Source: Chitinophaga niabensis
GTDB lineage: Bacteria > Bacteroidota > Bacteroidia > Chitinophagales > Chitinophagaceae
Length of the DNA: 64,000 bases
Assembly (NCBI GenBank): GCA_017849435.1
Contig: JAFIGY010000022.1
Coordinates: 211,821 to 275,820, forward strand
Direction of reading: 5' to 3'
Numbering within the stretch: the first letter of the stretch is position 1; each line of letters opens with the position of its first letter. This document shows, in pieces, positions 7,416 through 63,731 of this stretch. A program made the position numbers and the translations under genes. A model generated the notes under the pieces. It had not been told where the DNA came from. It did not search any database and worked only from the letters and a program-made list of their open reading frames with translations.

Positions 7416-8663
7416 ATGAAAAAACTATTTGTATCCCTGCTCTTTTGCGGCGCTGGCTTTGCCGTAATGGCACAAAAAGCCAAGGTGAGCAGTGCAGAAG
7501 ATAATCTGAAGAGCGAGAAATTTGATCAGGCAAAAGCAGACATCGATGCAGCATTGCAAAATGACAAAACGAAAGATGATGCCAAAACCTGGTATGTGAA
7601 AGGGAAGATCTATGAAGCACTGGCCACCAAGCACAAAAGTGCCGCTGATGCACTGGTAGCTTATGAGGCGTTCAAGAAAACCCTGGAGATCAACCCGAAA
7701 CTTCCCGAAGCACTGCTGGAGCTGAACAGCCGTATGTACAACATCTACGCAACCATCGGGAATGCAGGCTATGGTAACCTGAATGAACAGAAATGGGATT
7801 CTTCTTTCACCTATTTCAAAAAAGCATTTGAGGTGGCCGACTTCTATAATGGCAAGAACCTGGGAGGTACCATTCCCCGTGATACTGCCATGGTATTCTA
7901 TTCCGGTTATGCTGCCCAGCAGGCCGGAAAGAAGGACGAAGCATTTGACCTGCTGAAACAGGCTGCCAAACTGAGGTACAAAAATGAGCCCGCGCTTTAC
8001 GTAGTACTCGCACAACAATACGAAGAAAGAGGTGATAACGCCCACTGGCTTGCCACGATCGATACCGCCAAAGCATACTTCCCGGCTGACAAGCGTTTCA
8101 ACGATATGGAAATGCTGTATTATTCCAAAACAGGGAAGACCAATGAGCTGATCAGCATGATGGAAAAGAAAGTACAGGAGAATCCTAAAGATTTCGCCCT
8201 GTTGCTGGATTATGCCATCCGCCTGGACAATGTGGGCAATCCCCGCGATGAGAAAGGCGCCGACCTGCCCAAGCCCGCTAACTTCGATGAGCTGATGAAC
8301 AAAGCAGAAGCCGCTTACAAGAAGGCATTGGAGCTGAAAGCAGATGACGCCACCGCCAACTTCCAGCTTGGAGCATTATATTTCAACCGCGCCGTTGCTT
8401 TCAACAAGGAACTGAACGCTATGGACAGCAAACAGCTGGGCACTCCCAAAGCGAAAGAATTGCAAGGTAAAGTAGAAGGGCTGATGAACCAGTCTCTGCC
8501 TTTCTTCGAGAGAGCGGATCAGGGCTTTAGCGCTCAGGGTAAACTCGATCCCAGCGACAAGCGTACATTTGAAAGCTGCCTCTATGCCCTGCAAAAGATC
8601 TACGCGATCAAAAATCAGAACGATAAGGTAGAAGCAGTGAAAAAGAAACTGCAGAACCTCTGA
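7416..8663 (+). CDS. Secreted tetratricopeptide repeat protein
   Basis: A 415-residue protein with an N-terminal signal peptide (MKKLFVSLLFCGAGFAVMAQ, cleavage after AQ). TPR-type helices fill the rest, for example VAYEAFKKTLEINPKLPEALLEL, AGKKDEAFDLLKQAAKL and AAYKKALELKADDATANFQLGALY. It should act in the periplasm or at the outer membrane as a protein-interaction scaffold. No catalytic motif is visible and the partner is unknown. It lies 47 bp after gyrA on the same strand and ends at a strong terminator, so gyrA and this gene probably form one unit. Confidence 0.85.
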   Translation: MKKLFVSLLFCGAGFAVMAQKAKVSSAEDNLKSEKFDQAKADIDAALQNDKTKDDAKTWYVKGKIYEALATKHKSAADALVAYEAFKKTLEINPKLPEALLELNSRMYNIYATIGNAGYGNLNEQKWDSSFTYFKKAFEVADFYNGKNLGGTIPRDTAMVFYSGYAAQQAGKKDEAFDLLKQAAKLRYKNEPALYVVLAQQYEERGDNAHWLATIDTAKAYFPADKRFNDMEMLYYSKTGKTNELISMMEKKVQENPKDFALLLDYAIRLDNVGNPRDEKGADLPKPANFDELMNKAEAAYKKALELKADDATANFQLGALYFNRAVAFNKELNAMDSKQLGTPKAKELQGKVEGLMNQSLPFFERADQGFSAQGKLDPSDKRTFESCLYALQKIYAIKNQNDKVEAVKKKLQNL

Positions 8664-8684
8664 TCATATCAATGATATTCTTAT

Positions 8685-8718
8685 AAAAAGCCGCATCTTT
8701 TAGCAGATGCGGCTTTTT
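8685..8718 (+). terminator. Rho-independent terminator after the gyrA-TPR unit
   Basis: A perfect 14-bp inverted repeat, AAAAAGCCGCATCT (8685-8698) with AGATGCGGCTTTTT (8705-8718), separated by a 6-nt loop. It begins 22 bp after the TPR stop codon and ends in a T-run. Confidence 0.9.
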
Positions 8719-8860
8719 GTTGCATTAACGGGCATAAAATTCTACAGTTATTCCACACTGTTGTTTATCGGCATGTTTGTTCTCATTTCTTTCTCTCCCC
8801 TGTAATAAAAACGTTATCAACACATTATACATCCCCAAGAGATTAATCCCCCGTCTTGGC

Positions 8861-8874
8861 ATGGTAATTACCAT
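8861..8874. promoter_or_regulatory. Perfect palindrome upstream of the KGG protein gene
   Basis: ATGGTAATTACCAT is its own reverse complement and lies 54 bp before the start of the KGG stress-protein gene, a plausible operator position. About four perfect 14-bp palindromes are expected by chance in 64 kb, so this is suggestive only. Confidence 0.3.
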
Positions 8875-8927
8875 AGGCTAGAGGATAACTGTACAATTAC
8901 ATTCATAACCATATCAAATCCTTAATT

Positions 8928-9278
8928 ATGATCACAAGAGCAAAAACAACCGACACTGAAGCGCCTCAACAGCAGCCCCAGATGAAAGAAGGCCGTGCCT
9001 TTCACCATGGAAGCTCCCGTGAAGAAGAACATGATGAATTTGATGAAGATGATCAAATGATAGAAGCGTATGATGAAAATGAAGTTGGAATGGAAGAAAG
9101 ACGCAAACACCGGGAAGCTGATATGGCTGATGGAGATGAGGCCGCGCATCAGCATATTGTCAGAACTCCGAGCAGGCGTGGTTTTGCGGCAATGGACAAA
9201 GAAAAACAAAGAATGATCGCCAGTAAAGGTGGAAAGGCCTCACATGGTGGTGGCCGTAAACCTGGCAAAAATCGTTAA
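8928..9278 (+). CDS. KGG domain stress-associated protein
   Basis: A small, very hydrophilic protein of 116 residues. The middle is rich in Glu and Asp (EEEHDEFDEDD). The C-terminus holds one copy of the KGG motif (IASKGGKASHGGGRKPGKNR), the signature of the stress-induced KGG family also found in GsiB-like general stress proteins. It looks intrinsically disordered with a basic tail after an acidic centre. It forms a single-gene unit bounded by terminators at 8685 and 9302. The family is linked to general stress, but the molecular function is not known. Confidence 0.8.
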   Translation: MITRAKTTDTEAPQQQPQMKEGRAFHHGSSREEEHDEFDEDDQMIEAYDENEVGMEERRKHREADMADGDEAAHQHIVRTPSRRGFAAMDKEKQRMIASKGGKASHGGGRKPGKNR

Positions 9279-9301
9279 ACAGCAGCAGCAATGCTGGATA
9301 G

Positions 9302-9343
9302 CAAATGGCCGGATAATGTTACGATATATTGTCCGGCCATTTG
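9302..9343 (+). terminator. Rho-independent terminator after the KGG gene
   Basis: CAAATGGCCGGA (9302-9313) pairs with TCCGGCCATTTG (9332-9343), followed by TTTTCC. It starts 24 bp after the KGG stop codon. It overlaps the extended open frame of the next gene, which supports that gene's later start at 9377. Confidence 0.8.
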
Positions 9344-9376
9344 TTTTCCGTAAATTGTCATTTCATAACGAACATC

Positions 9377-10336
9377 ATGAAAGCCGTAGCTGTATCCGCC
9401 TTTAAAGCAGTTCCCCAAATCATGGAACTCCCTGAGCCCGATGTAAAACCTGGTACTATCAAGATCAGGCTGGCCGCTGCCGGCTTGAATCCTTATGACT
9501 GGAAACTTGTAGACGGCATCATGGACGGCCATATGCCGCATACTTTCCCAATGATCCTTGGCACGGACGGCGCAGGCGTTGTAACGGCAACAGGAGAGGG
9601 GGTTACCCGGTTCCGGAAAGGAGATCGCGTCTATGGCCAGGTTCTGCATGCCCCTATCGGGGAAGGCTCTTACGCGGAATATGTAGTGGTTCCTGAAAAT
9701 GCCAGGATCACGCATGCTCCGGAGAAGATTTCGTTAAGTGAAGCAGCGGCTGTTCCCACAGCGGGCATGACGGGTGCGCAATTGCTGGAGAAGTCAGGAT
9801 TACGGGCAGGGCAAACATTATTACTGATCGGCGCAACAGGCGGAGTGGGATCTTTCACGGTCCAGCTGGCGAAAGCGAAAGGCATACAGGTGATTGGAAC
9901 AGCAGGTTCAGCAGAGGAAGCAGAACGCCTCAGATCCCTCGGCGCAACAACCATCATCAACTACAAGGAGACCCCGGTCCGGGAAACGGTTCGCCAGCAA
10001 TATCCCGCAGGTGTGGACGGCCTGATCGATCTCATCAATAATGCAGCAGGATTTACGACTATGATGACCCTGGTAAAAAAAGGAGGCGCCGCACTCACCA
10101 CCCTGTTCGTGGCGGATCAACATGCTATTGAGGCGCAGGGATTGCACGGTGGGAACTTTGAGACCAAGGGATCTCCTGCGTCACTGGACGTGCTGAAACA
10201 AGCCATCGATGCCGGACAACTGAAGGTGCCCGTGGATCAGAAAATATCGCTGGAGGAAGCTCCGGCTGCTATTGCTGATAGCCGGGAGCGGAAGAGTCGC
10301 GGTAAAACCATCATCCTGATCAACGACCAGCTGTAG
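9377..10336 (+). CDS. NADP-dependent oxidoreductase of the quinone oxidoreductase (MDR) family
   Basis: A 319-residue zinc-independent medium-chain dehydrogenase. Seen: a GroES-like N-terminus with NPYDWK and LGTDGAGVV, the tyrosine-containing GSYAEYVVVPE, and a nucleotide-binding motif LIGATGGVGSFTVQLAKAKG at about residues 150-170. It lacks the structural-zinc cysteines of alcohol dehydrogenases, as quinone reductases and NADP-dependent alkenal reductases do. The frame is open back to 9329, but that stretch lies in the preceding terminator, so ATG 9377 is used. Its tail overlaps the convergent BNR gene by 17 bp. The substrate is unknown. Confidence 0.88.
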   Translation: MKAVAVSAFKAVPQIMELPEPDVKPGTIKIRLAAAGLNPYDWKLVDGIMDGHMPHTFPMILGTDGAGVVTATGEGVTRFRKGDRVYGQVLHAPIGEGSYAEYVVVPENARITHAPEKISLSEAAAVPTAGMTGAQLLEKSGLRAGQTLLLIGATGGVGSFTVQLAKAKGIQVIGTAGSAEEAERLRSLGATTIINYKETPVRETVRQQYPAGVDGLIDLINNAAGFTTMMTLVKKGGAALTTLFVADQHAIEAQGLHGGNFETKGSPASLDVLKQAIDAGQLKVPVDQKISLEEAPAAIADSRERKSRGKTIILINDQL

Positions 10337-11627
10337 GATCCCATTCCAGCACCGTTACCGGTTGCGGCGGCAGATCCGATCTCCCTTCACCATCCCGCTG
10401 GTCCGCCATTTGAACGAATAAATGCAGTTTCTTCGCGGTTCTCCAAAGTTCCGTATCGTACGAAGGCTCCCATGAACCAACAGAAGTATCTGTGAGATCG
10501 GTAACCGTCCATTTTCCGCGTTGCACATCCCTGCTAACGGCAATAGATACACGATTACTTCTTTCTTCATCCCTGAAAACAAGCGCGACATTACTTTTTC
10601 CCCATGCGATGATCTGTGGCCTGGACACCGGGATGCGTTTGGTGCCGCCGCCACTCAGGCTGAAAGGCGTTCTCCGGAATTTCAGCGATTGTACCATCCA
10701 GCGTCCGCTTTGCAGGAAAGCTACGTGATACTGTGGAATGGAGTCGCCCTGCTCCCGCCAATACGTCGCGACGAACGGACGACCGTTTTCATCCGTGCAC
10801 ATGGAGGTTTGGTTGATCAGTTCGCTTTTTTGCGGAATGCGGCAAATGTATTCTGCGTTCGAGGTGTTGATCGGCAGTTGATATTTTTCACCGGTAGATT
10901 TTTCCCAGGTCAGGCCACCATCCCGGGAACGGGCATAACAGAGATCGTGATTCGTGCTGGCATCTCCACTTTCCCGCCATACCCACGACAGATGGAACAC
11001 GCCCTTACTATCCATACAAGCCTGCCAGTAAGCATTCCGCATATTTTCTCCGTCCACCAGGTTATTGTGTACCCGTTGCCAGCGAGCGGTTTGCACATCA
11101 TAGCGGTTCATCACGAGGTTCCCTTGCCCCGAGCGGCCATCGCGATACAGAAAAAGGAGGTTACCATCCGGTGTGCGGTAAAATTCGGGATAGGTCACCT
11201 TTTCCTCCTGTGTGCCCGTCATACTCATCTTCTCCGTCATTTCCAGTGAAAAAGGCGCTTTGCTTTTACAATACCGCAATGCATTGGCGTGATGATCCCA
11301 GGCCAGGTGAAGGTAGCCTTTGCCATCGATCTCCAGGCAGATGGTGTTATGGGCATCGGCGGCATTGCCTTTGAGGGGAGTGGTTTTGAGCTCCCATTTA
11401 CCGGCGGGGAGGGTTCTTTTGCCCAGGACCACATGGGCGTCTTTGTCGTAATAAGCGATGAACTGTGTTTGGTGTGCAGTGGCGAGGGCGTTCTTCCGGA
11501 ACACCACCACATTCACGGAATTGCCTGCCCAGCCTTCACCAACATAAGAGGTGACAGGCTTTTGTTGTGCGAAGAGCGTTGTGCTGCAGAAAAGCAGCAT
11601 CACATAACGTGGAAAATATACTTTCAA
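10320..11627 (-). CDS. Secreted BNR-4 repeat family protein
   Basis: A 435-residue protein with a signal peptide (MLLFCSTTLFAQ). Its body fits the BNR-4 repeat family (sialidase-like beta-propeller): HLAWDHHANALRYC, a repeat with SRDGGLTWEK, FHLSWVWRESGD and VSRPQIIAWGKSNVALVFRD. Related propellers occur in sialidases and in some polysaccharide lyases. This suggests binding or cleavage of an extracellular glycan, but I see no residue set that proves catalysis. It is probably co-transcribed with the YjbR gene 20 bp upstream. It is convergent with, and overlaps by 17 bp, the oxidoreductase gene. Confidence 0.75.
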   Translation of the reverse strand: MKVYFPRYVMLLFCSTTLFAQQKPVTSYVGEGWAGNSVNVVVFRKNALATAHQTQFIAYYDKDAHVVLGKRTLPAGKWELKTTPLKGNAADAHNTICLEIDGKGYLHLAWDHHANALRYCKSKAPFSLEMTEKMSMTGTQEEKVTYPEFYRTPDGNLLFLYRDGRSGQGNLVMNRYDVQTARWQRVHNNLVDGENMRNAYWQACMDSKGVFHLSWVWRESGDASTNHDLCYARSRDGGLTWEKSTGEKYQLPINTSNAEYICRIPQKSELINQTSMCTDENGRPFVATYWREQGDSIPQYHVAFLQSGRWMVQSLKFRRTPFSLSGGGTKRIPVSRPQIIAWGKSNVALVFRDEERSNRVSIAVSRDVQRGKWTVTDLTDTSVGSWEPSYDTELWRTAKKLHLFVQMADQRDGEGRSDLPPQPVTVLEWDPTAGR

Positions 11628-53515: not shown

Positions 53516-54514
53516 ATGCCAGCAACGTACACTGTGAGCTTGTACAGCACCGCACACCGCCTGCACGCGCTTCATCGCCGGCTTCGGCAGCAGGAAAAGT
53601 ACATCCGGGAGCAACTGCCTCCTATCCTGCGGGCGTTTGAAGAGGGCCAGCAGGGAAAATTCTCCGGGAAATCCGTTAAAAGGATGATCAAATACTGGCA
53701 ATTATCGCTCAATGTTATTTGCGACAGTCTGTACCGGCTCACCGGCCGTGAGCTGAGTGAAGATGAGCAGTACCGGATCATATTGTTCGGTATTCTCGGT
53801 CCGTTGTACGACGATCTTTTCGACGACGGAATACTCGATCATCCGCAGATCGAGGCATTCACGCTGGAACCGGAGGGGTTTGTGGCCGAGGGGTTCGAAC
53901 AGTATGCCGTGAAACAGGCATATCTGCAACTGCTCGCAAAAGTACCGCAACGGCAGCATGTGATCCGTCATCTTCACGAGGTTTTCCTATGGCAGAAAGC
54001 CTCCCTGCAGCAGATGCAGAACACTATCGGCGAAGAAGAGCTCTACCGGATCACTTACGAAAAAAGCTATTGTTCCTTCCTGCTCTGTTATTCCATCCTC
54101 GATCACTATCCCGAACCTGCAATACTGGAAATGCTGTACCCCGCCGCCGGGCTCCTGCAACTGACCAATGATATCTTTGATGTTTATAAGGATATTCAGG
54201 GAGGTATTTATACCGTTCCCAATCTTTACCGGGATTTCGACAAACTTCGCAGCAGGTTCATGAGCGATGTGGCACAACTGAACCAAAGGCTGCAACAGTT
54301 ACCCTATCAAACCCGGGAAAAGAAAATATTCGGGATTACTATTCATGCACTTCATGCCATGGGCTGCATCGCCATGGAGCAGCTGCAGAAAACCACCCGG
54401 GATGTGGCAGCCCTCACCGAGCTCAGCCGGGAACAGCTTGTTTGCGATATGGACAGTTTCTTCCAGAAAGTCAGGTGGATCAGGCAGGTACAATACCTGG
54501 TGAACTACGGCTGA
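53516..54514 (+). CDS. Class I isoprenoid-synthase-like protein
   Basis: A 332-residue, all-helical cytoplasmic protein. Two acidic motifs stand where class I terpene synthases and prenyltransferases bind magnesium-diphosphate. The first is DDLFDD (residues 99-104, preceded by ILGPLY). The second is LTNDIFDVYKD (216-226), which resembles an NSE/DTE or second Asp-rich motif, followed by IQGGIYTVPN. Their separation of about 115 residues fits the fold. Overall similarity to named terpene cyclases is not obvious, so whether it makes, cyclises or transfers a prenyl chain is unknown. It has no biosynthetic neighbours. Confidence 0.7.
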   Translation: MPATYTVSLYSTAHRLHALHRRLRQQEKYIREQLPPILRAFEEGQQGKFSGKSVKRMIKYWQLSLNVICDSLYRLTGRELSEDEQYRIILFGILGPLYDDLFDDGILDHPQIEAFTLEPEGFVAEGFEQYAVKQAYLQLLAKVPQRQHVIRHLHEVFLWQKASLQQMQNTIGEEELYRITYEKSYCSFLLCYSILDHYPEPAILEMLYPAAGLLQLTNDIFDVYKDIQGGIYTVPNLYRDFDKLRSRFMSDVAQLNQRLQQLPYQTREKKIFGITIHALHAMGCIAMEQLQKTTRDVAALTELSREQLVCDMDSFFQKVRWIRQVQYLVNYG

Positions 54515-54609
54515 TCCCCTGATGTCAATCAGATACTCCCCTAATGGCCGTCATACATCCTCCCCTCACATCATGGTACTTTTGGAAGAAAGTGGAAAAA
54601 TAAAGCATA

Positions 54610-54990
54610 ATGAGGAACGGAAAACTAGGAATGCTGATTGCGGAAAATGAGTCATGGCGAAGCAGTATTAAGTTTCTGGAAGAACAGAACATACGTTTCA
54701 AAACGCAGCTGGCAGATATCCTGAGTAAGGATGGTCATGTTCCCGGGCTTGATCAGTTGGAGGATTTCCAGAACAGGTTCATTAAAATGGATGAGCAGAT
54801 AAGCCTGGTCAGGCATGAGGTAAGGGAACAGCTTTACCAGTTGCAGCAATTTTCCCGTGGAAACAGCCTTCAATACAGGAGGGCTATTGAATTGCAGGAA
54901 GGGTTGAAAGTAAAAGTGCACATACTACATGAAAACTTCCGGAAACTTAGAACGGAGTTCAACATATACCTGCAATCCAATGTACACTAG
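54610..54990 (+). CDS. Hypothetical coiled-coil protein
   Basis: A 126-residue, largely helical protein with heptad-like repeats (LEEQNIRFKTQLADIL, MDEQISLVRHEVREQLYQLQ, LQEGLKVKVHILHENFRKL). No signal peptide or membrane span. Its stop overlaps the convergent REC-CRP gene by 4 bp. It is transcribed towards the signalling genes but on the opposite strand. A role as partner of that module is possible but unsupported. No family recognised. Confidence 0.65.
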   Translation: MRNGKLGMLIAENESWRSSIKFLEEQNIRFKTQLADILSKDGHVPGLDQLEDFQNRFIKMDEQISLVRHEVREQLYQLQQFSRGNSLQYRRAIELQEGLKVKVHILHENFRKLRTEFNIYLQSNVH

Positions 54991-56045
54991 CAAATCATGT
55001 TTGCCAGTTTCTTTTCATTGATGATCACGATCGCTCCTTCCCTGATATCGATGAGTTTTTCCTCTCTGAAGTCACCGAGGGTACGGATAAGGGATTCCGT
55101 AGCAGTGCCGGCAATAGTGGCCAGATTATCCCGGCTGATGTCAATAGTGAAAGGGGTTTCCGGTTGCTGATTATATTTCCGGTTTAGGTTCATCAACGCT
55201 TCTGCCACCTTCTTCCGGAGGGAATTATATGCCAGGCCCAGGAGTTGCTGCTCTTTATTGGAAACGTTCCTTGCCAGCATCCGGATAAATTGAAAAGCAA
55301 CTTCCTGGTTACTGTTGAGCAGTTCTTCAAAATCTTCTCTTGGAATAACCGCTATTTCACATTCTTCCATGGCTTCCGCTGTATCTTTATATACGGTGCC
55401 TTCCAACAGGGCAACATATCCCAGAAAATCGCCGGCATTGTATAGCTCCACTACCAGTTCCTTTCCATCCTCATTCCTTTTAAAGGTCTTTACTTTTCCT
55501 CTTTGAACATAATACAGGCGGAGCGGGTGATTCCCTTCCATATAGATCACCTGCTTCTTCTTATACCTGTCCACATTCCTTCCATCGGCAAGTGACTGCA
55601 GGTTGATTTTCCCCGTGGCCTCCTGCATGAGTTGATGAAGCCCCTGCAGATTGGCAGGGAAATTTTGTTTTTTGACATCTGCTTTCCTGAGGCGCCCTTC
55701 CACGGCATGAAGGAGATCCGTACCACTGAAGGGCTTGGTGATATAGTCGTCTGCCCCCATCTCCATTCCTTTCCGGAAATCGCTCCTTTCTGTTTTGGCA
55801 GTCAAAAAGATGAATGGAATTTCTCTTGTTTTTGGATTTTTTTGTAACATATGCAACACACCGTATCCATCCAGTACCGGCATCATGATATCACAGATCA
55901 CCAGGTCCGGATGATGCTCCAATGCCTGTTCCACTCCTTTTTTCCCATTTTCCGCAGTCAAAACCGAATATCCGGCGAGCTCAAGTATTTCCGCGGTATT
56001 CTCACGGATTTCTCCGTTGTCTTCAATTAAAAGAATTGTTTTCAT
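54987..56045 (-). CDS. Receiver-CRP fusion response regulator
   Basis: A 352-residue protein with three parts. A receiver domain (1-120) has phospho-acceptor Asp52 (ICDIMMPVLDG) and Lys104 (ITKPF). A cyclic-nucleotide-binding-like beta-roll (about 150-260) includes YVQRGKVKTFKRNEDGKE and YNAGDFLGYVALLEG. A CRP-type winged helix (about 275-345) has the recognition segment TATESLIRTL (E317-S-x-x-R321), the Glu/Arg pair used by CRP and FNR to read TGA half-sites. The roll lacks the full cAMP-binding signature and cysteines for an Fe-S cluster, so control is probably by phosphorylation. It overlaps the histidine kinase gene by 23 bp. Confidence 0.9.
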   Translation of the reverse strand: MKTILLIEDNGEIRENTAEILELAGYSVLTAENGKKGVEQALEHHPDLVICDIMMPVLDGYGVLHMLQKNPKTREIPFIFLTAKTERSDFRKGMEMGADDYITKPFSGTDLLHAVEGRLRKADVKKQNFPANLQGLHQLMQEATGKINLQSLADGRNVDRYKKKQVIYMEGNHPLRLYYVQRGKVKTFKRNEDGKELVVELYNAGDFLGYVALLEGTVYKDTAEAMEECEIAVIPREDFEELLNSNQEVAFQFIRMLARNVSNKEQQLLGLAYNSLRKKVAEALMNLNRKYNQQPETPFTIDISRDNLATIAGTATESLIRTLGDFREEKLIDIREGAIVIINEKKLANMIC

Positions 56046-57612
56046 GATAGCCTGTTACTTTATTCAAAGGAAATACAATCGTAAAAGTAGTGCCTTTTTC
56101 CAGTTCACTGTTACAGGAAATATGGCCGTTCATCAGTTCACTGTATTTGCTGACGATATGAAGCCCCAATCCCGTACCCTGAATGTTTGCCGCATTGGCG
56201 CCACGGAAAAAACGCTCGAACAAATGCTGTTGGTCTTCTTTCGACATCCCGATACCCTGATCTTTTACTTCCAGGCTGAAGGCATCGCCTTTGTTTGCTG
56301 TGCGCAGATGAACCCGGGAATGGGCAGGTGAGAATTTGACGGCATTCACGAGCAGATTCATAATAATATGACGTAACAGCGTAGGGTCTAATGCTATTTC
56401 AGGATCGCCGGTATGCTCATATTCCACATGCTGGCCCTCTTTCAAAAGTCCCTGCACCTCCTGTATCATATCAGCGATCTGTTCTGGAACATTGAAATTC
56501 ATCATGCGCACCTGTATCTTCCCTTCTTCGATCTTGCCTACAGACAGAAAATCATTCAGTATGTCCGTGAGCAGGTTCACAGAACTAACGATCCGCTGCA
56601 GGTGCCGGTTACGCTTAGGCTGGTCTGCCTCTGCCGCATATTGTTTAACGAGGAATGCAGAAGACAGGATCGTGCTAAGGGGTGTACGGAATTCATGGGA
56701 TGCCATGGAAACGAAACGGGATTTCAATTCTCCCAGTTCCTTTTCCCGACCCAGCGCCACCATCAGCTCTTCCTTGGATAGTTCCAGTTGCTCAAGCGCT
56801 TTCCTGAGCTGTAAGGTACGGTCTTCCACCATCTGCTCGAGTTCCGTATTCAACTTCTCAATCTCTTCTTCCGCTTTTTTCCGGAGCGTGATATTATTGA
56901 TATAGGCGATTACAAATGCACCTTCCTCATTGTGATAGTGGCTCAGGCTTATTTCCACCGGGAACTCTGTGCCATTACTGCGCACTGCATAAAGATCCAT
57001 GCCAATCCCCATCGGTCTGTTCTGTGGATGGCGGTTATAACGGTTCCTGTGCCCGATGTGTTTTTCATGGAATCGCCTGGGCAGGAGTTGTTCCACCTTT
57101 TTCCCCAACAGTTCCTCCCGCCGGTAACCAAATTCCGTTAATGCAAAATCGTTGATCATAACGATCTCCCCTTGTTCATTGGCTACAATGATCCCCAGGC
57201 TGGCATAATCAAACAGGGCTCCGAAACGCTGCAACTCTTTTTCTATTTGCTGGCGGTAATGAAGCACGGAGCCAATGTCAGACATTCGGAAAAAACAGTA
57301 GCTATGATTATTGTAACGGAAAAGGAGATTTTCATAGGTGCAGCGGACCGTTTCCCCCTTTTTATTCATCCAGGTGATCTCCTCCTGAATGCCAACACCC
57401 GTCTGGTTATAACCGATCTGATTGCTATCGAGTACTGATGCCGCCTCCAATATGTCTTCTGTCTCAAGCATCTTCATACCGGCCTCATTCATGTAGATCA
57501 GCTTCCCGTCCTTCATGTCCCTGATCCCTACCAGCCCTGAATGCCTTTCCATAATAGCCGCAAATATGGATAGCTGAAAACCTTCGTTGAGGTGATTTGT
57601 CAATGTAGTCAT
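56023..57612 (-). CDS. PAS-domain sensor histidine kinase
   Basis: A 529-residue cytoplasmic kinase without membrane spans. Two PAS regions (about 12-110 and 125-245; second with ASLGIIVANEQGEIVMINDF, REELLGKKVEQLLPRRFHEK and VRSNGTEFPVEISLSHYH) lead through a coiled coil to HisKA (HEFRTPLSTILSS) and HATPase (HIIMNLLVNAVKFS, DQGIGMSKED, GTGLGLHIVSKY). Cytoplasmic PAS kinases often sense redox state, oxygen or ligands. No heme-ligand pattern can be proven here. It is the natural partner of the overlapping REC-CRP gene and has its own promoter at 57651-57682. Confidence 0.93.
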   Translation of the reverse strand: MTTLTNHLNEGFQLSIFAAIMERHSGLVGIRDMKDGKLIYMNEAGMKMLETEDILEAASVLDSNQIGYNQTGVGIQEEITWMNKKGETVRCTYENLLFRYNNHSYCFFRMSDIGSVLHYRQQIEKELQRFGALFDYASLGIIVANEQGEIVMINDFALTEFGYRREELLGKKVEQLLPRRFHEKHIGHRNRYNRHPQNRPMGIGMDLYAVRSNGTEFPVEISLSHYHNEEGAFVIAYINNITLRKKAEEEIEKLNTELEQMVEDRTLQLRKALEQLELSKEELMVALGREKELGELKSRFVSMASHEFRTPLSTILSSAFLVKQYAAEADQPKRNRHLQRIVSSVNLLTDILNDFLSVGKIEEGKIQVRMMNFNVPEQIADMIQEVQGLLKEGQHVEYEHTGDPEIALDPTLLRHIIMNLLVNAVKFSPAHSRVHLRTANKGDAFSLEVKDQGIGMSKEDQQHLFERFFRGANAANIQGTGLGLHIVSKYSELMNGHISCNSELEKGTTFTIVFPLNKVTGYHENNSFN

Positions 57613-57650
57613 TTAATGTCCGGCTATTACAAGTGTATTAGAAACTGTCT

Positions 57651-57682
57651 GAAAGGTAAGTATTTTATATGTTTACATCAAA
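57651..57682 (-). promoter_or_regulatory. Promoter of the histidine kinase/REC-CRP operon
   Basis: Minus strand: TTTG (57682-57679), a 20-bp spacer and TACCTTTC (57658-57651), one mismatch to TAnnTTTG. The start would be near 57644, leaving a leader of about 32 nt. Confidence 0.6.
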
Positions 57683-57732
57683 GCAATCGCTTCAAAGCCC
57701 GGCAAATTTGTGGCCGTTTGACTCCCTGCCAT

Positions 57733-57746
57733 ATGACAGCTGTCAT
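57733..57746. promoter_or_regulatory. CRP/FNR-like palindromic operator
   Basis: ATGACAGCTGTCAT is a perfect 14-bp palindrome with half-sites TGAC/GTCA in the N4 spacing of FNR/DNR boxes (TTGAC-N4-GTCAA type). It is centred about 62 bp upstream of the predicted start of the USP gene, a class I activator position, and about 95 bp upstream of the kinase start. The REC-CRP protein encoded in this divergon is the obvious candidate to bind it. Confidence 0.55.
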
Positions 57747-57767
57747 GCAATTCCATGACCCTCATCA

Positions 57768-57798
57768 TTTCCGGTTTTGCCCGATCCTGATATACTTG
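57768..57798 (+). promoter_or_regulatory. Promoter of the universal stress protein gene
   Basis: TTTC (57768-57771), a 19-bp spacer and TATACTTG (57791-57798), each element one mismatch from TTTG and TAnnTTTG. The start would be near 57802, 18 bp before the ATG. The imperfect elements fit an activator-dependent promoter. Confidence 0.5.
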
Positions 57799-57819
57799 TG
57801 CAGCGATTAAAATGATATT

Positions 57820-58500
57820 ATGAAAAGGATTCTTGCCATATTAGATGCATCACATTTCCCGGATACTGAACTCCGCAGTTTTCATTATATGGCCGGGCTC
57901 TCCGGGGGAGAGCTTACGGAGATCTTCCTGGAAGATATCGTTGCGGGGAGTAACAACGGCATTCCTGTTGCTACAGTTGTTACCGAGAGCCGGTTCGCAG
58001 ACCTGTTGCTCATTAATCAGCAAACTTCTTTTGCAGAACTCGCAAGCAGCCAGCCTCCGGAATTTGTGAAAGATACACTCACTGAAGCAGAATGCCCGGT
58101 TATGATCGTTCCGGAAAATACGGCTCCGGTGAACGAAATTATTTTCACCTACAATGGCACACATTCATCCATGTATGCGATCCGCCAGTTTACACAACTA
58201 TTCCCCTCCCTTTCCGATATTCCGGCACAGGTTGTTTATGTAATCGAAAACGGCAACGGAGAGATACCGGATAAAAAATTGCTGACAGCATATATGGAAC
58301 AGCACTACAGGCATGTCAGCTACACGGTTATGGAAGGAGAGCCTGCACCGGCACTCCTTGGACTTCTGCTGCATAAAAGGAATTGCATTGTATGCATGGG
58401 CGCCTATGGACGAAGCAAAGTCTCCCGTTTCTTCCATCACAGTCATGCCGACAGTATCCTGCGGATGTTTAATGTCCCCATGTTTATTACCCATCCCTGA
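57820..58500 (+). CDS. Universal stress protein family protein
   Basis: A 226-residue protein. The second half is a UspA domain (about 105-226) with NEIIFTYNGTHSSMYAIRQF and the C-terminal MGAYGRSKVSRFFHHSHADS. The usual ATP-binding pattern G-x2-G-x9-G-(S/T) is changed at the third Gly (His), so nucleotide binding is doubtful. The first half (LAILDASHFPDTELRSFHYM, TLTEAECPVMIVPE) is a shortened UspA-like repeat. Divergent from a kinase/REC-CRP operon, with a CRP-like palindrome between, it is a probable target of that regulator. Confidence 0.85.
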   Translation: MKRILAILDASHFPDTELRSFHYMAGLSGGELTEIFLEDIVAGSNNGIPVATVVTESRFADLLLINQQTSFAELASSQPPEFVKDTLTEAECPVMIVPENTAPVNEIIFTYNGTHSSMYAIRQFTQLFPSLSDIPAQVVYVIENGNGEIPDKKLLTAYMEQHYRHVSYTVMEGEPAPALLGLLLHKRNCIVCMGAYGRSKVSRFFHHSHADSILRMFNVPMFITHP

Positions 58501-58748: not shown

Positions 58749-61070
58749 ATGAAAAGAATTCCCTTATTGGCAATAGCCTTGCTCTGCCTCTGCCATGCTT
58801 ATGCCCAACAGGCCAGAATGGGCCGGGTATTTGACCTATACACACTTTCACCGGTTAAGAACGCTGATGTTTACGCAAATGGCAAACTATACTCTGTTAC
58901 GGATGCCAATGGTTATTTCAGTTACGAATGCGCCGGATGCACACTAACAATAAAAGCATCCGGCTACGAACCGCTGACCCTGCAGGCGAGGGACGGCAAC
59001 ACTCTCCTGACCGTAGGTTTAACGGCTGCCTCCTATAATCTCAATGAAATAACGGTGAGTGCCGTAAAACCCGGTGCCAATCTGCTACAGCCGCGATCCG
59101 TGGGTATACTTACCCGGCAGGATCTCCAGCGGAATGACGGACTGTTCCTCGAAAACACCCTGAACCTGATACCTGGCATACGCATGGAAAAAAGGACCAT
59201 GGCCGGCGGACAACGCATTACCATCCGGGGGTACGGGAATGGCACCAACTTCAACGGCACCGGCTATAAGTCCTATCTCAACGGCATCCCTGTCACAGAT
59301 GCAGAAGGCAGCACCATCCTTGACGATATCGATTTCTCCGTTCTGGGACGGGTGGAAGTTATCAAGGGTCCCGCTTCCAGTTTGTATGGCAGTGGCATCG
59401 GCGGAGTGCTCAAAATGTATACGGCCAAACCGGCCTGCTATGGCACCAGCATCCTGCAGGAAGCGCTGGCCGGCAGCTATGGGCTCTTCCGGACTAACAC
59501 CCGTATATCGCACGCGGGAAATAAATCTTCCATTATGCTGAATTATGGACATCAGAATTATGACAGTTACCGCATCCAAAGCGCGTCTAAAAAAGATTTT
59601 GTTTCCTTCATCGGCGATTTCACCCCGAATGAAAAACAGGTATTCTCCGTTTATGCAGCTTATAATAACTCCCGGGATCAGTTAGCCGGGCAGCTGGACA
59701 GTATCCAGTTTGCACAAAAGAAAGATACCGGTGAGGTGCCTTATCTGAAGAACAATGGTTACGTGGCTTTCGAGACTTACCGTGCCGGATTGTCCCATCA
59801 ATACAGCTTTTCACCTCACATCAATAATACCACCAGTGCTTTTTTTGGAGGATATAAACAATCCCAGGCCTTTGCCGTTGGCTTCTCTTCTAACATGACG
59901 CAGAACTTCGGAGCGCGAACGGCTTTCGGTTTCAACTTCTATGGCAGGCGGGTATCGCTGAACGGTACGATTGGCGCGGAATTCCAGAAAACGAATTCGT
60001 TCAGGAAGAGTTACGGACTCACCAATAGTGTGTTGGGCGGTCTTAGTGGCGACCTGGAGCTGTCCACCATGCAATACAGCCTTTTCACCCAATGGGAACT
60101 GAAGTTGCCGGAGGGATTTTTGATCACCGCGGGTCTTAGCAATAATTATATTGAATATGGTATTGACGACCGGCTTACGAATTCCGCCAATCCCACTCAT
60201 AAGGACCAGTCCGGGCGCAAGGTCTTCACCCCTGTGCTCACGCCACAGATCAGCATACTCAAGTCACTGAGTGATGCAATATCCGTATATGCCGGTGTAA
60301 GCAGGGGTTATTCTCCACCCGTATCCGGCCAGGTGGTCATTCCCCAGATCAGCCAGGTGAACACCGGTCTGCGGCCGGAAAAAGCCGTGCAGTATGAAGC
60401 AGGTACCAAGGGCAGTTTGTTGCGCAAGCAGCTTTCCTTCCAGCTGGCCGTATTTGATATGGAGATCAGGGATAAACTTACGTCCCAGGCCATAACAGGC
60501 AGTAACGGTACTGTGCTCTACACAATGGCCACCAATGCCGGCGGACAACAAAACCAGGGAATGGAAGTGGACCTCGCTTACACCATCACGCCCCGTTCAT
60601 CCACCGTTTTCTCCCTCATCCGCCCGTTCCTCACCTACACCTATTCTCACTTTACCTATAAACAATTCAAAAGTGACAATAACAACAACGAGAAAACCAT
60701 CGACTACAGCGGCAGGAACGCTTCCGGTGTACCGCCCCACCTGTTCAACGCTGGCGTGGATATCGTTACCCGGCCAGGGTTTTACCTGAACACGACCTGG
60801 CAGTATGTGGACAAGATGCCGATCACTTATGACAACGCTCACTATGCAGACGCCTATACGTTGCTACAGTCCAAACTCGGATATCGTCATGATTTTGGAA
60901 AACATTTTAACCTCGATGTATTTGCCGGCGGTCATAACCTGACCGGCAGCCGGTATTATACCATGGTATTCCTCAACGCCAACTTCAGTGCGGCTTCTCC
61001 AAACATTTACCTGCCCGGTCCCTATACCGCCACATGGTACGGCGGATGTCACCTCACCTATAAATTCTAA
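58749..61070 (+). CDS. TonB-dependent receptor of a heme-type import operon
   Basis: A 773-residue outer-membrane receptor. A signal peptide (LLCLCHAYAQ) is followed by a carboxypeptidase-like regulatory beta-domain (about 22-95; DANGYFSYECAGCTLTIKAS with a C-x2-C), a plug (about 100-230; QRITIRGYGNGTNFNGTGY, RVEVIKGPASSLYGSGIGG) and a barrel ending in Phe. The HmuTUV genes follow in the same operon, so heme or a related iron chelate is the likely cargo. It belongs to the FecA/ShuA-like rather than the SusC group, as no SusD is present. hmuT follows after 9 bp. Confidence 0.9.
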   Translation: MKRIPLLAIALLCLCHAYAQQARMGRVFDLYTLSPVKNADVYANGKLYSVTDANGYFSYECAGCTLTIKASGYEPLTLQARDGNTLLTVGLTAASYNLNEITVSAVKPGANLLQPRSVGILTRQDLQRNDGLFLENTLNLIPGIRMEKRTMAGGQRITIRGYGNGTNFNGTGYKSYLNGIPVTDAEGSTILDDIDFSVLGRVEVIKGPASSLYGSGIGGVLKMYTAKPACYGTSILQEALAGSYGLFRTNTRISHAGNKSSIMLNYGHQNYDSYRIQSASKKDFVSFIGDFTPNEKQVFSVYAAYNNSRDQLAGQLDSIQFAQKKDTGEVPYLKNNGYVAFETYRAGLSHQYSFSPHINNTTSAFFGGYKQSQAFAVGFSSNMTQNFGARTAFGFNFYGRRVSLNGTIGAEFQKTNSFRKSYGLTNSVLGGLSGDLELSTMQYSLFTQWELKLPEGFLITAGLSNNYIEYGIDDRLTNSANPTHKDQSGRKVFTPVLTPQISILKSLSDAISVYAGVSRGYSPPVSGQVVIPQISQVNTGLRPEKAVQYEAGTKGSLLRKQLSFQLAVFDMEIRDKLTSQAITGSNGTVLYTMATNAGGQQNQGMEVDLAYTITPRSSTVFSLIRPFLTYTYSHFTYKQFKSDNNNNEKTIDYSGRNASGVPPHLFNAGVDIVTRPGFYLNTTWQYVDKMPITYDNAHYADAYTLLQSKLGYRHDFGKHFNLDVFAGGHNLTGSRYYTMVFLNANFSAASPNIYLPGPYTATWYGGCHLTYKF

Positions 61071-61079
61071 ACAAGCGGT

Positions 61080-61952
61080 ATGAAAAGAATATACCTCCTC
61101 CCTCTGCTGCTCCTCTGTGCCTGTGGCCGGTTTGGCCATCAGAACGGGCATGGGACGGACAGTACACGCATCGTATGCCTCGCCAAACAGTACAACGAAG
61201 TGATCTATGCGCTGGGGACAGAAAAGAACCTCGTTGCAGTGGACCTTTCCAGCACCTATCCTCCTGCCATCAAATCATTACCCACTGTGGGCTATCACCG
61301 GGCATTAAGCGCGGAAGGCATCATTGCGCAAAATCCCACGCTCGTAATCCATGACAACAACATCGGACCGGAACCGGTGATGCGGCAGCTGGAGCAAATG
61401 AAGATACCCATGAAAACCTTTGCTGACAGTGTTTTCACGATTGAGCAGGATAAAGCCATGATCCGGCAGCTCGGCGCTTATTTCAGCAGGGAAAAGCAGG
61501 CGGACAGCCTCTGCCGGCAGCTGGATTCGGATATGGAACACGCCCTGGCCGAAGCGCGGCAATACAGTGATACTCCCAAAGTGGTGATCATTCATTTCGG
61601 CCGTGCCATGAATATTTATCTTGCCATCACACAGAAAAGCACGGCGGCTAAAATGATACGATGGGCCGGAGGGGTTATTCCCATATCCGGAGATAAAGGC
61701 ATGCAGCAGGTGTCTCCGGAGCTGATCGCACAGGCTGATCCGGATGTGATCCTGTTGACGGACTTTGGATACGACCGGCTGGGCTCCGCAGAGAAAGTGA
61801 AAGAACTGCCGGGTGTGGCCGGTACAAAAGCCGCACGCAATAACCGCATCTACCGGATAGAGGAACATGATATCATTTATCTCGGTCCCCGTACCGGCGC
61901 CAATGTACTGGCTTTCCAAAAACTGATCCATGCGGGACCGGCAGCACAGTAA
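61080..61952 (+). CDS. hmuT: Heme ABC transporter substrate-binding lipoprotein
   Basis: A 290-residue periplasmic binding protein of the TroA/BtuF fold with a lipobox (LLLLCACGR, Cys15). Seen: IVCLAKQYNEVIYALGTEKN, VGYHRALSAEG with Tyr72 at the position of the heme-coordinating Tyr in HmuT/ShuT, and the C-terminal KAARNNRIYRIEEHD. The GY-x-R-x-LS-x-EG motif separates HmuT from cobalamin-binding BtuF. Its stop overlaps the permease start by 23 bp. Confidence 0.85.
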   Translation: MKRIYLLPLLLLCACGRFGHQNGHGTDSTRIVCLAKQYNEVIYALGTEKNLVAVDLSSTYPPAIKSLPTVGYHRALSAEGIIAQNPTLVIHDNNIGPEPVMRQLEQMKIPMKTFADSVFTIEQDKAMIRQLGAYFSREKQADSLCRQLDSDMEHALAEARQYSDTPKVVIIHFGRAMNIYLAITQKSTAAKMIRWAGGVIPISGDKGMQQVSPELIAQADPDVILLTDFGYDRLGSAEKVKELPGVAGTKAARNNRIYRIEEHDIIYLGPRTGANVLAFQKLIHAGPAAQ

Positions 61953-62958
61953 AGTCTACCTGCTGCTGATCATTCTGCTGCTCACAGCCATGCTCTTCTC
62001 CGCCTGTTTCGGCGCAGTCAATATTCGCATGGATGAGATCTCCAGTGCATTCGGCAAATTCTTTTCTGCACGAAACGATCTCAGTTTGCACGAACGCATT
62101 TTCCTTGACATCCGTTTGCCGAGGGTATTATTCTGTGTACTGGCCGGAGCTGCATTGGCCATTGGTGGCGTGCTGTTGCAGGCACTTTTCCGGAATCCCC
62201 TCGTAGAACCGGGCCTGATCGGCACCTCAAGCGGTGCTGCTTTTGGGGCGGCGCTGTATTTCGTACTTGGCGCCACGTTACATTTTCATGCCGGTGAATG
62301 GACTTTACCCATCGCCGCTTCCGCGGGCGCTATGATCGCCACTTTCCTGGTGCTGGGATTATCCGCAGGAAAGAAAGGAAGCAAGACCGGCATCGTCACC
62401 CTCCTGCTGATGGGCATCGCGGTGAATGCTTTGTTTCTTAGCGGTACAGGATTTCTTTCCTACATCGCCCGCGATCCGCAGGCACGCTCCATTACTTTCT
62501 GGAATCTTGGCACGCTTTCCGGCGCCAACTGGCATGCCGTGACCATCGCTGCCGTTGTACTGGCCACCTGTTGCTGGCGGGCACTTGCCAATGCGCGAAA
62601 ACTGAACCTGTTGATGCTGGGGGAAGATGAAGCCATGCTGGCCGGGGTTTCCGTACCACGGTTGAAAATGGAGATACTCCTCACCAATGTGATCATGATC
62701 GCAGTCGTAACGGCTTTCACAGGCGTGATCGGGTTTGTGGGATTGGTAGTGCCGCATTTTCTACGGATATGGAAAGGGGCGGATAACCGTTACCTGATCA
62801 TCGGCGGTGCATTGGCCGGGGCCGTGCTGCTCAGCTTTGCGGACATCATTGCACGGTTACTGCTGCGGCCTGCAGAACTGCCGATCGGGATCGTTACCGC
62901 TTTCGCCGGTGTGCCGGTTTTCATCTTCTTACTGCGAAAGAAAAATTATTATTTCTGA
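61930..62958 (+). CDS. hmuU: Heme/iron ABC transporter permease (FecCD family)
   Basis: A 342-residue inner-membrane permease with about nine or ten spans. Seen: IRLPRVLFCVLAGAALAIGG, QALFRNPLVEPGLIGTSSGA, GKKGSKTGIVTLLLMGIAVN, FWNLGTLSGANWHAV and GFVGLVVPHFLRIWKGADNR, all FecCD hallmarks. It forms the channel for the substrate delivered by HmuT and works with the HmuV ATPase, encoded 2 bp downstream. Confidence 0.92.
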   Translation: MRDRQHSKVYLLLIILLLTAMLFSACFGAVNIRMDEISSAFGKFFSARNDLSLHERIFLDIRLPRVLFCVLAGAALAIGGVLLQALFRNPLVEPGLIGTSSGAAFGAALYFVLGATLHFHAGEWTLPIAASAGAMIATFLVLGLSAGKKGSKTGIVTLLLMGIAVNALFLSGTGFLSYIARDPQARSITFWNLGTLSGANWHAVTIAAVVLATCCWRALANARKLNLLMLGEDEAMLAGVSVPRLKMEILLTNVIMIAVVTAFTGVIGFVGLVVPHFLRIWKGADNRYLIIGGALAGAVLLSFADIIARLLLRPAELPIGIVTAFAGVPVFIFLLRKKNYYF

Positions 62959-62960
62959 CA

Positions 62961-63731
62961 ATGCTGACCTGTCATCATATCACCGTCGTGCGGAACAACC
63001 GGACTTTATTGAAAGATGTCAACTTTCAACTGGATGCCGGGAAACTTCACCTGATCATAGGGCCTAACGGGGCGGGGAAATCCACGCTGTTGCGCGTGAT
63101 CAGCGGACAAATGGCATCCTCTTCCGGTACTGTATCTTATGGAGGTAAATCTATTTCTGCTTTCAATCCACGGGAACTCGCCAAAGTGCGGGCGCTGCTC
63201 TCCCAGCACCAGGAACTTTCTTTTCCGCTGAAAGTCCGGGAGGTGGTCATGATGGGGAGGTATCCACATATACAAGGCAGGCCTTCGGAAAAAGATATGC
63301 GCTATGGACAGGAAGCGATGCAGCTCTTCGATCTCGTTCCTTTATCTGACCGCGATTATACCAGCCTGTCCGGCGGTGAAAAACAACGGGTACATTTTGC
63401 CCGTATCCTTTCGCAGATATGGGAACCTGTTCCGGGTTCCTGCCGCTATTTGTTACTCGATGAACCGCTCACGTTCCTGGACGTGCATTACCAGTTCCGG
63501 TTCATGCGATTGTTGAAAGAATTGTTACAACAGCAGGATCTCGTGATCACCGGCGTAGTACATGATCTCCATATCGCTACCCGGTTCGCCGATCACCTGC
63601 TGTTATTGCACGGAGGTGAACTCGTTAGCCGGGGCAGCCGGGAAACTGTGCTGAGTGCAGATAATATTCAACGTTTTTATCAACTCGAAGAAGAAGATGC
63701 AAGCACGATCATCGGCAAAGCATTCAGATAA
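62961..63731 (+). CDS. hmuV: Heme ABC transporter ATP-binding protein
   Basis: A 256-residue ATPase. Walker A is GPNGAGKST (34-42), the signature is LSGGEKQR (136-143), Walker B is YLLLDEP (163-169), and the switch His lies in GVVHDLHIA. HmuV-type wording is seen in LAKVRALLSQHQELSFPL and VVMMGRYPH. It powers import through HmuU. Its 3' end overlaps the convergent YdeI-like remnant by 8 bp. No HmuS or HmuY follows in the window. Confidence 0.93.
   Translation: MLTCHHITVVRNNRTLLKDVNFQLDAGKLHLIIGPNGAGKSTLLRVISGQMASSSGTVSYGGKSISAFNPRELAKVRALLSQHQELSFPLKVREVVMMGRYPHIQGRPSEKDMRYGQEAMQLFDLVPLSDRDYTSLSGGEKQRVHFARILSQIWEPVPGSCRYLLLDEPLTFLDVHYQFRFMRLLKELLQQQDLVITGVVHDLHIATRFADHLLLLHGGELVSRGSRETVLSADNIQRFYQLEEEDASTIIGKAFR

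Follow-up and report, generated by a model that had tools for sequence, protein, structure and literature searches.

A 64-kb stretch of Chitinophaga niabensis DNA (the window), part of a 5.0-Mb genome of 23 contigs, encodes a PAS-containing histidine kinase, a response regulator in which a receiver is fused to a CRP-type DNA-binding module and a divergent protein resembling universal stress proteins (USP), joined by a tandem palindromic operator. We propose that these parts probably form a two-component switch responding to low oxygen (or redox), similar in operation to FixL–FixJ–FixK but made of two proteins. The nearest named relatives of the fusion are from Chitinophaga. The fusion (352 residues; 54987..56045, minus strand) matches Response_reg at residues 4-116, the cNMP_binding fold at 160-246 and the helix-turn-helix (HTH) family HTH_Crp_2 at 279-349. 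Its gene overlaps by 23 bp that of the kinase (529 residues; 56023..57612, minus strand; Pfam PAS_9, HisKA with His-306, and HATPase_c), in which no membrane segment was seen. The divergent USP-like open reading frame (ORF; 226 residues; 57820..58500, plus strand) has a C-terminal Usp match that is weak (residues 155-224 alone, 29.3 bits versus a cut-off of 24), and no PDB match was found for it. In coordinates and Pfam domains, the three genes agree with the initial annotation of this DNA.

In the proposed mechanism, a kinase with a FixL/DosP-like PAS domain would phosphorylate Asp-52 of a receiver fused to a FixK/FNR-type DNA-binding module. Two dimers of the fusion would then bind TGAN6TCA-N10-TGAN6TCA directly, the proximal dyad at -41.5 (the class II position) and the distal one at -63.5, presumably for activation rather than repression. 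One double operator in the window would serve both the kinase-regulator operon and the USP gene, each dyad being proximal for one promoter, and the system should therefore regulate itself. A second double operator in the window would serve a 126-residue ORF, and the wider regulon would include the cbb3 oxidase (ccoN/ccoO), a ccoI-like ATPase and USPs. The proposal builds on features observed in the DNA itself, namely gene architecture, dyad spacing, geometry relative to the -7 box, identity of the targets and co-occurrence across genomes.

The operator unit is a 34-bp tandem double dyad located at 57734-57767. The palindrome ATGACAGCTGTCAT (57733..57746) had been described as the only strong one in the region; a second dyad of the same family, ATGACCCTCATCAT (57755..57768), lies exactly 22 bp from it. 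The palindrome is part of a conserved CRP/FNR-type operator as initially supposed, the 22-bp double dyad being found in related loci. In 80 named loci (919,958 bases, fetched by protein only and including some close relatives), TGAN6TCA occurs 555 times and forms 50 pairs at a distance of 22, 5 at 24 and at most 2 at any other distance up to 44, and five control words gave at most 2 pairs at any distance. In 13 genomes of the same genus, spacings of 16-28 comprise 54 pairs at 22, 22 at 21 and 1-8 at each other value, among 121 distinct pairs listed; the raised count at 21 may reflect coding words or a second spacing. Twenty same-genus loci, two of them from one genome, include 17 with a double site and 19 with the kinase, which adjoins the fusion. 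A prior-free count of 4-base palindromes in the upstream regions of the kinase genes (72 in all, the window's and 71 orthologs) against block shuffles ranked ATGA-N6-TCAT (17 versus 0.6) and TGAC-N4-GTCA (13 versus 0.2) first, with TGAT-N4-ATCA (10 versus 0.6) ranked among A/T runs. TGAN6TCA is present within 400 bp in 38 of these 72 upstream regions, in 31 with at least three of the four flanking consensus bases, and at least 20 of the 72 hold a pair 22 bp apart among the matches listed, at most three per region.

The single palindrome behaved otherwise. Its enrichment upstream of genes had been set beforehand as a test, and the whole genome contains 22 copies of TGACN4GTCA versus 55 of the reversed pattern; ATGAYN4RTCAT occurs 40 times versus 9 reversed, and the 15 of these 40 that were examined all lie inside ORFs. 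These counts therefore do not establish enrichment of the single site in front of genes. As a control, the reversed pattern carries little weight, TGA/TCA words being commoner than ACT/AGT words in the 80 loci (555 versus 162), and we therefore relied on spacing, -7 offset and co-occurrence. The initial observation was thus confirmed in part: the genes and the palindrome were as described, but the palindrome is not the only strong one, and enrichment of the single site was not supported.

The double dyads stand in a fixed relation to a promoter element. In Flavobacterium psychrophilum, the box TAnnTTTG is placed at -12 to -5 (PMC9723704). We analyzed loci from L048 upward (L001-L047 were left out), dropping sites with fewer than three consensus half-sites; this set holds 103 sites with 133 gene-facing targets, 63 of them with a box. 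Among the 116 of the 133 gene-facing rows that were long enough, TAnnTTTG lies 23 nt past the proximal TCA exactly in 23 and with at most one mismatch in 54. The next best of offsets 0-89 is 45 (3 exact and 7 with at most one mismatch, of 99 rows), which equals 23+22, as would be expected if the register could move by a single dyad. The background is 55 of 4992 positions, or 1.1% per offset. Given the published box position, offset 35 would be the transcription start site (TSS) and the dyads would be centered at -41.5 and -63.5; of the 70 sites that could be oriented, 63% have an A there. The class II geometry is thus predicted from the distance to the -7 box. Six of the 104 unique double sites have a box on both sides and 58 on one side. 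Among 315 strong dyads that stand alone (80 loci, L048-L127), 11 are followed by an exact TAnnTTTG at offset 23, against 0-3 at other offsets, and single-dyad promoters may therefore exist as well.

The window element is one of the six two-sided sites, with a box at exactly 23 on both sides. On the USP side, the predicted -7 box TATACTTG (57791..57798, plus strand) lies 23 nt past the proximal dyad ATGACCCTCATCAT, the predicted -41.5 site, and places the TSS at about 57803. On the other side, the predicted box of the kinase-regulator operon, CAAATTTG (57703..57710, minus strand), lies 23 nt past ATGACAGCTGTCAT and places the TSS at about 57698. ATGACAGCTGTCAT is therefore predicted to be both the -41.5 site of the kinase promoter and the -63.5 site of the USP promoter. 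The position of about -62 initially given for it fits -63.5 from 57803, and the center of the dyad is 80 bp from the USP ATG. Unlike the single palindrome, the double dyad combined with a -7 box at that offset is enriched: it occurs twice in the window with one mismatch allowed per part, and 0 times in 20 first-order Markov sequences of 64 kb. The second copy (54520..54553, plus strand; one of the 12 fixed bases off) has an exact -7 box, TACTTTTG, at 54577-54584 (plus strand) and a predicted TSS at about 54589. Behind it lies the 126-residue ORF (54610..54990, plus strand), which is convergent with the fusion gene and has no match in Pfam or NCBIfam. Homologs of this ORF have a perfect double dyad, with a box of at most two mismatches, within 350 bp upstream in 10 of the first 60 listed.

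The regulator was examined in an alignment of 81 fusions (that of the window, a paralog in the same genome and those of 79 of the 80 named loci). The phosphoacceptor Asp-52, the active-site Lys, the Thr/Ser and the acidic pair are each conserved in 81 of 81, as in response regulators. The HTH Glu and Arg, whose retention had been pointed out initially, are invariant in all 81 and, together with the cNMP-binding fold, place the fusion in the CRP/FNR superfamily; its best match to a CRP chain has an E value of 1.7e-19. Five cAMP-contact columns were compared using the Escherichia coli CRP sequence and its numbering. At E72, R82, S83, T127 and S128, the window fusion has Y, K, D, K and E; across the 81 fusions R82 is retained in 6, S83 in 2 and the other three in none, the common replacements being Tyr/His/Phe, mostly Lys, Glu/Asp, Lys/Arg and Glu/Lys, respectively. 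By these contacts the fusion does not group with cAMP-dependent CRP. Because the phospho-Asp is invariant and the cAMP contacts are mostly replaced, the fusion looks built for phosphorylation rather than cAMP and thus looks kinase-driven. It also has no cluster-type Cys at the columns where the FNR-type proteins of loci L220, L221 and L226 carry Cys, at the N-terminus and before an IP motif, and in this respect differs from iron-sulfur (Fe-S) FNR. Nor is it a FixJ, which combines a receiver with a LuxR-type HTH. The top NCBIfam match is PhoB, through the receiver and far under the PhoB cut-off. Structure models of the kinase and the fusion were used for domain limits only, that of the fusion being of moderate confidence (models with pTM 0.45 and 0.42).

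The fusion itself is not rare, since every one of the 79 genomes of the genus that were searched has a match (E values of at most 1.6e-108), and relatives are encoded by at least 589 stretches of the named collection, with receiver-only relatives possibly among them. Of the 80 named loci, 79 have a kinase match next to the fusion gene. The paralog in the same genome (G000:C2:541366-542400; L217 7340-8404) is 51-53% identical and has no adjacent PAS kinase; it may be an orphan regulator that shares operators with the window system. In locus L120, a double site (5888-5921) lies 74 bp upstream of a fusion gene itself.

Six perfect double sites are present in the genome. One, with a -7 box, lies ahead of a ccoN/ccoO fusion, with hemN within the cco cluster. 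A second separates the gene of a ccoI-like ATPase from that of a radical-SAM/TRAM protein, a third is flanked by plain FNR and GcvH-like genes (with a box on the GcvH side only), and a fourth lies between a cytochrome c domain protein and a 443-residue ORF; the remaining ones are that of the window and one, in L143, with poor half-sites. The 133 gene-facing targets fall into clusters (members with a box in parentheses) of the kinase, 21 (10); Usp, 9 (4); ccoN, 9 (7); ccoI-like, 7 (6); a protein that matches nothing in Pfam, 6 (0); CRP-type proteins, among them a fusion, 5 (0); a short uncharacterized protein, 5 (4); HSP20, 4 (3); and the USP type of the window, 3 (2). Because loci L143-L214 were retrieved with the double pattern as the query, they may contain chance sites. 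Pfam confirmed the representatives of the ccoN, ccoI-like, Usp, HSP20 and CRP-type clusters, whereas L051, of the window's USP type, had no Pfam match. A homolog of the window's USP is present in 14 of the 20 same-genus loci.

These targets bear on two early claims. The circuit had been taken to close on the USP gene; instead, the same element serves the kinase operon by prediction, and ccoN/ccoO and others in the same genome are also candidate targets. The guess that low oxygen is the signal fits the cbb3 targets and the FixL-like PAS. F. psychrophilum raises its cbb3 oxidase under oxygen limitation (PMC9723704). In six loci (L080, L094, L096, L098, L100 and L105), double sites at about 8260-8520 lie about 1.2-1.5 kb downstream of the fusion gene and upstream of a 218-241-residue protein, and the kinases lack the FixL-like segment. 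The six targets of 227-241 residues in L080, L094 and others were considered as FNR genes and rejected, no Pfam match being found in the two that were scanned.

Co-occurrence ties the operator to the fusion. We surveyed 247 Bacteroidota genomes, 61 of the same class as the window and 186 others, counting a fusion as full-length at E below 1e-60. Within the class, 28 of 38 genomes with a full-length fusion have at least one double site (131 sites in all), as opposed to 6 of 23 without (14 in all). A second comparison used 150 genomes of genus g15, which we take to resemble Flavobacterium, and a 4-of-4 consensus criterion derived from the Chitinophagaceae motif. Operators of this quality are present in 9 of 20 g15 genomes with the fusion versus 0 of 130 without (p=2e-9); the association is weaker at 3-of-4 (9 of 20 versus 8 of 130, p=2.7e-5) and at 1-of-4 (10 of 20 versus 29 of 130, p=0.012). 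The fusion is thus likely to read the double operators where they track it. In two g15 loci, L233 and L234, islands hold the fusion, its kinase and several double operators, along with ORFs that resemble MBL-fold, cation ATPase and USP proteins by their first residues only.

Several observations weigh against this assignment and the oxygen switch as a whole. No double site was found in 10 of the 38 fusion-bearing genomes of the class, nor any 4-of-4 site in 11 of the 20 fusion-bearing g15 genomes. The bare double pattern is present in 68 of the 186 genomes outside the class, mostly once each, where the full-length fusion is found in 0 of 186; we therefore took it there as chance background. 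The g15 sites lie mostly near the fusion gene, so that co-inheritance of an island may account for part of the association and inflate it. Among the kinase upstream regions, 34 of 72 have no TGAN6TCA in 400 bp; 40 of the 104 unique double sites lack a -7 box at the predicted distance on both sides, and at the first window operator each of the two boxes deviates by one mismatch. Only 6 of the 80 named loci contain a homolog of the window's USP, and some of these homologs are short. In the kinase, residue 205, at the position of the FixL distal Arg (Arg220), is Met. Genomes G228 and G095 carry six and three double operators, including ones upstream of cco genes, and no full-length fusion. Finally, the Cys-bearing FNR and the fusion of the window's genome have nearly identical recognition helices.

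The last two points bring in a second reader: a Cys-bearing FNR, probably of the Fe-S type, may share the operators with the kinase-driven fusion, the two acting as separate inputs to one regulon. We put the chance of this only a little short of even, and it overlaps with the two-protein switch rather than excluding it. FnrN and FixK jointly serve one regulon in some rhizobia. The window's genome contains both fusions as well as two FNRs, one plain and one with Cys, and their helices match. G345 has four 4-of-4 operators and the fusion but no L220-type FNR, no match being found at E below 1e-38 (the genome is 86% complete); in G228 and G095, double operators accompany a Cys-FNR and no full-length fusion. 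The latter two each have an L220-type Cys-FNR (62% and 58% identical), and two double sites examined in each adjoin cco genes (L221, L224); in G228, one double operator is downstream of the Cys-FNR gene, before a 180-residue ORF and a ccoI-like gene. Another regulator can therefore own double operators, and we conclude that an FNR can read the same element. Sharing is harder to reconcile with g15, where most of the genomes with the Cys-FNR lack the operators. The early statement that a kinase replaces cAMP or an Fe-S cluster accordingly stands for the kinase-driven look, and 'rather than Fe-S' is too strong given the shared helix and these two genomes; as a whole, that interpretation is supported in part. 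A stricter form, a two-input gate with one dyad for the fusion and the other for the Cys-FNR with nearly the same helix, strikes us as rather improbable. It would combine the chemistries of a PAS heme kinase and an Fe-S cluster on one 34-bp element and, in the window, act on two divergent promoters at once. A further double site in G228 (L223 6721-6754) lies between a hydrogenase small-subunit gene and a hypA-like ORF.

The input to the proposed switch depends on the kinase, which was modeled with two PAS folds at about residues 10-112 and 125-242. The second, PAS-B (56845-57255), matches the FixL heme PAS 1d06 at E=3e-11, followed in the PDB by the PAS of a multi-sensor kinase (10jx), DosP, further FixL chains and lastly a blue-light PAS. 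Kinase His-185 lines up, without gaps, with the heme-ligand His of FixL. Among 80 kinase rows this position is His in 68, Gln in 1 and a gap in 11, hence His in 68 of the 69 rows that cover it; the gapped rows comprise three cut short (L059, L060, L123), one starting later (L073) and seven longer kinases without the FixL-like segment (L080, L093, L094, L096, L098, L100, L105). The distal position is Met in 33 rows, Leu in 20 and Arg in 7. From this we infer that PAS-B binds heme and that the kinase responds to O2. A kinase without heme oxygen sensing, whose conserved His belongs to a wider PAS motif and which receives another signal, is nonetheless a substantial if doubtful alternative: the 10jx PAS has a similar H..HR..Y...P..R.MG stretch, the distal Arg is replaced, and the seven longer kinases lack the segment. 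Against it, the best PDB matches are mostly FixL/DosP heme PAS domains, the near-invariant His sits in an ungapped alignment to FixL, low-oxygen genes are among the targets and DosP also has a distal Met.

The main reader could instead be a conventional FNR, whether the Cys-FNR (L220 6310-7026) or the plain FNR (L218 4838-5557), with the fusion regulating something else and having no more in common with it than a similar helix. This we consider unlikely. The nearly identical recognition helix and the cco operators of G228 and G095 speak for it, as does a double operator at a distance of 22 bp from the plain FNR start, though it has no -7 box on that side. The g15 genomes speak against it. The L220-type FNR (E below 1e-38) is present in 132 of 150, with CxxC in 30 of 30 best hits checked, and 4-of-4 sites are not associated with it (8 of 132 versus 1 of 18); the 115 genomes with this FNR and no fusion have 4-of-4 double operators in 0 of 115, and G345 has its four with the fusion and no such FNR. 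The L218-type FNR (at least 40% identity) was listed in at least five g15 genomes, and among the matches listed only one (G376) belongs to the nine genomes with 4-of-4 sites. It is hardly credible that the palindrome arose by chance as an inverted repeat between divergent promoters: a single TGACN4GTCA is expected 0.71 times in 64 kb and appears at least once in 52 of 100 shuffles, but not so a 22-bp double dyad with two -7 boxes at exactly offset 23 that recurs in related loci.

FixL–FixJ–FixK does the same kind of job with three proteins. The two-protein switch resembles it in the FixL-like PAS kinase, the receiver step, the CRP/FNR-type DNA-binding output, the cbb3 oxidase and FixI-like ATPase targets and hemN in the cluster; unlike it, the receiver and a FixK-like module are one protein with no LuxR-type FixJ output, the distal PAS residue is Met, and the operator comprises two dyads in tandem along with a Bacteroidota -7 box. 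With FNR-type oxygen regulators the fusion shares the CRP fold, the recognition-helix Glu and Arg, TGA half-sites and the predicted class II position, but it has a receiver in place of cluster-type Cys and two dyads at a fixed 22 bp. With E. coli CRP it shares the cNMP-binding fold and HTH, and differs in the mostly replaced cAMP contacts, the added receiver and TGAN6TCA instead of the longer CRP site. With OmpR/PhoB-type response regulators it has the receiver in common, its output being of CRP type. Rhizobial FixLJ and FnrN/FixK are treated in PMC4999443. No description of the fusion or operator was found in the open full-text literature (titles and starts of abstracts, with most subscription journals outside it), which is weak evidence for novelty. 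If the proposal is correct, it represents another way to build the FixJ–FixK relay, with both steps in one protein, and a low-oxygen regulon of Chitinophagaceae and some flavobacteria; a precise operator, whose -7 box follows after 23 nt, together with a regulator and base-exact predicted starts, would make this regulon directly testable.

Other genes lie close to these operators. A 332-residue ORF (53516-54514, plus strand) has no Pfam match at 0.001; its DDLFDD and NDIFDVYKD stretches are reminiscent, by eye only, of class I terpene synthases. In L218, a partial ORF at 8533-11001 (plus strand) with HNH_4 and a weak Cas9_a match is Cas9-like and lies 2.5 kb from the double site of the FNR gene. 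Just downstream of the USP gene, positions 58749-63731 (plus strand) of the window encode in series a TonB-dependent receptor, a Peripla_BP_2 protein, a FecCD permease and an ABC ATPase, which are predicted to serve the uptake of iron, heme or cobamide.

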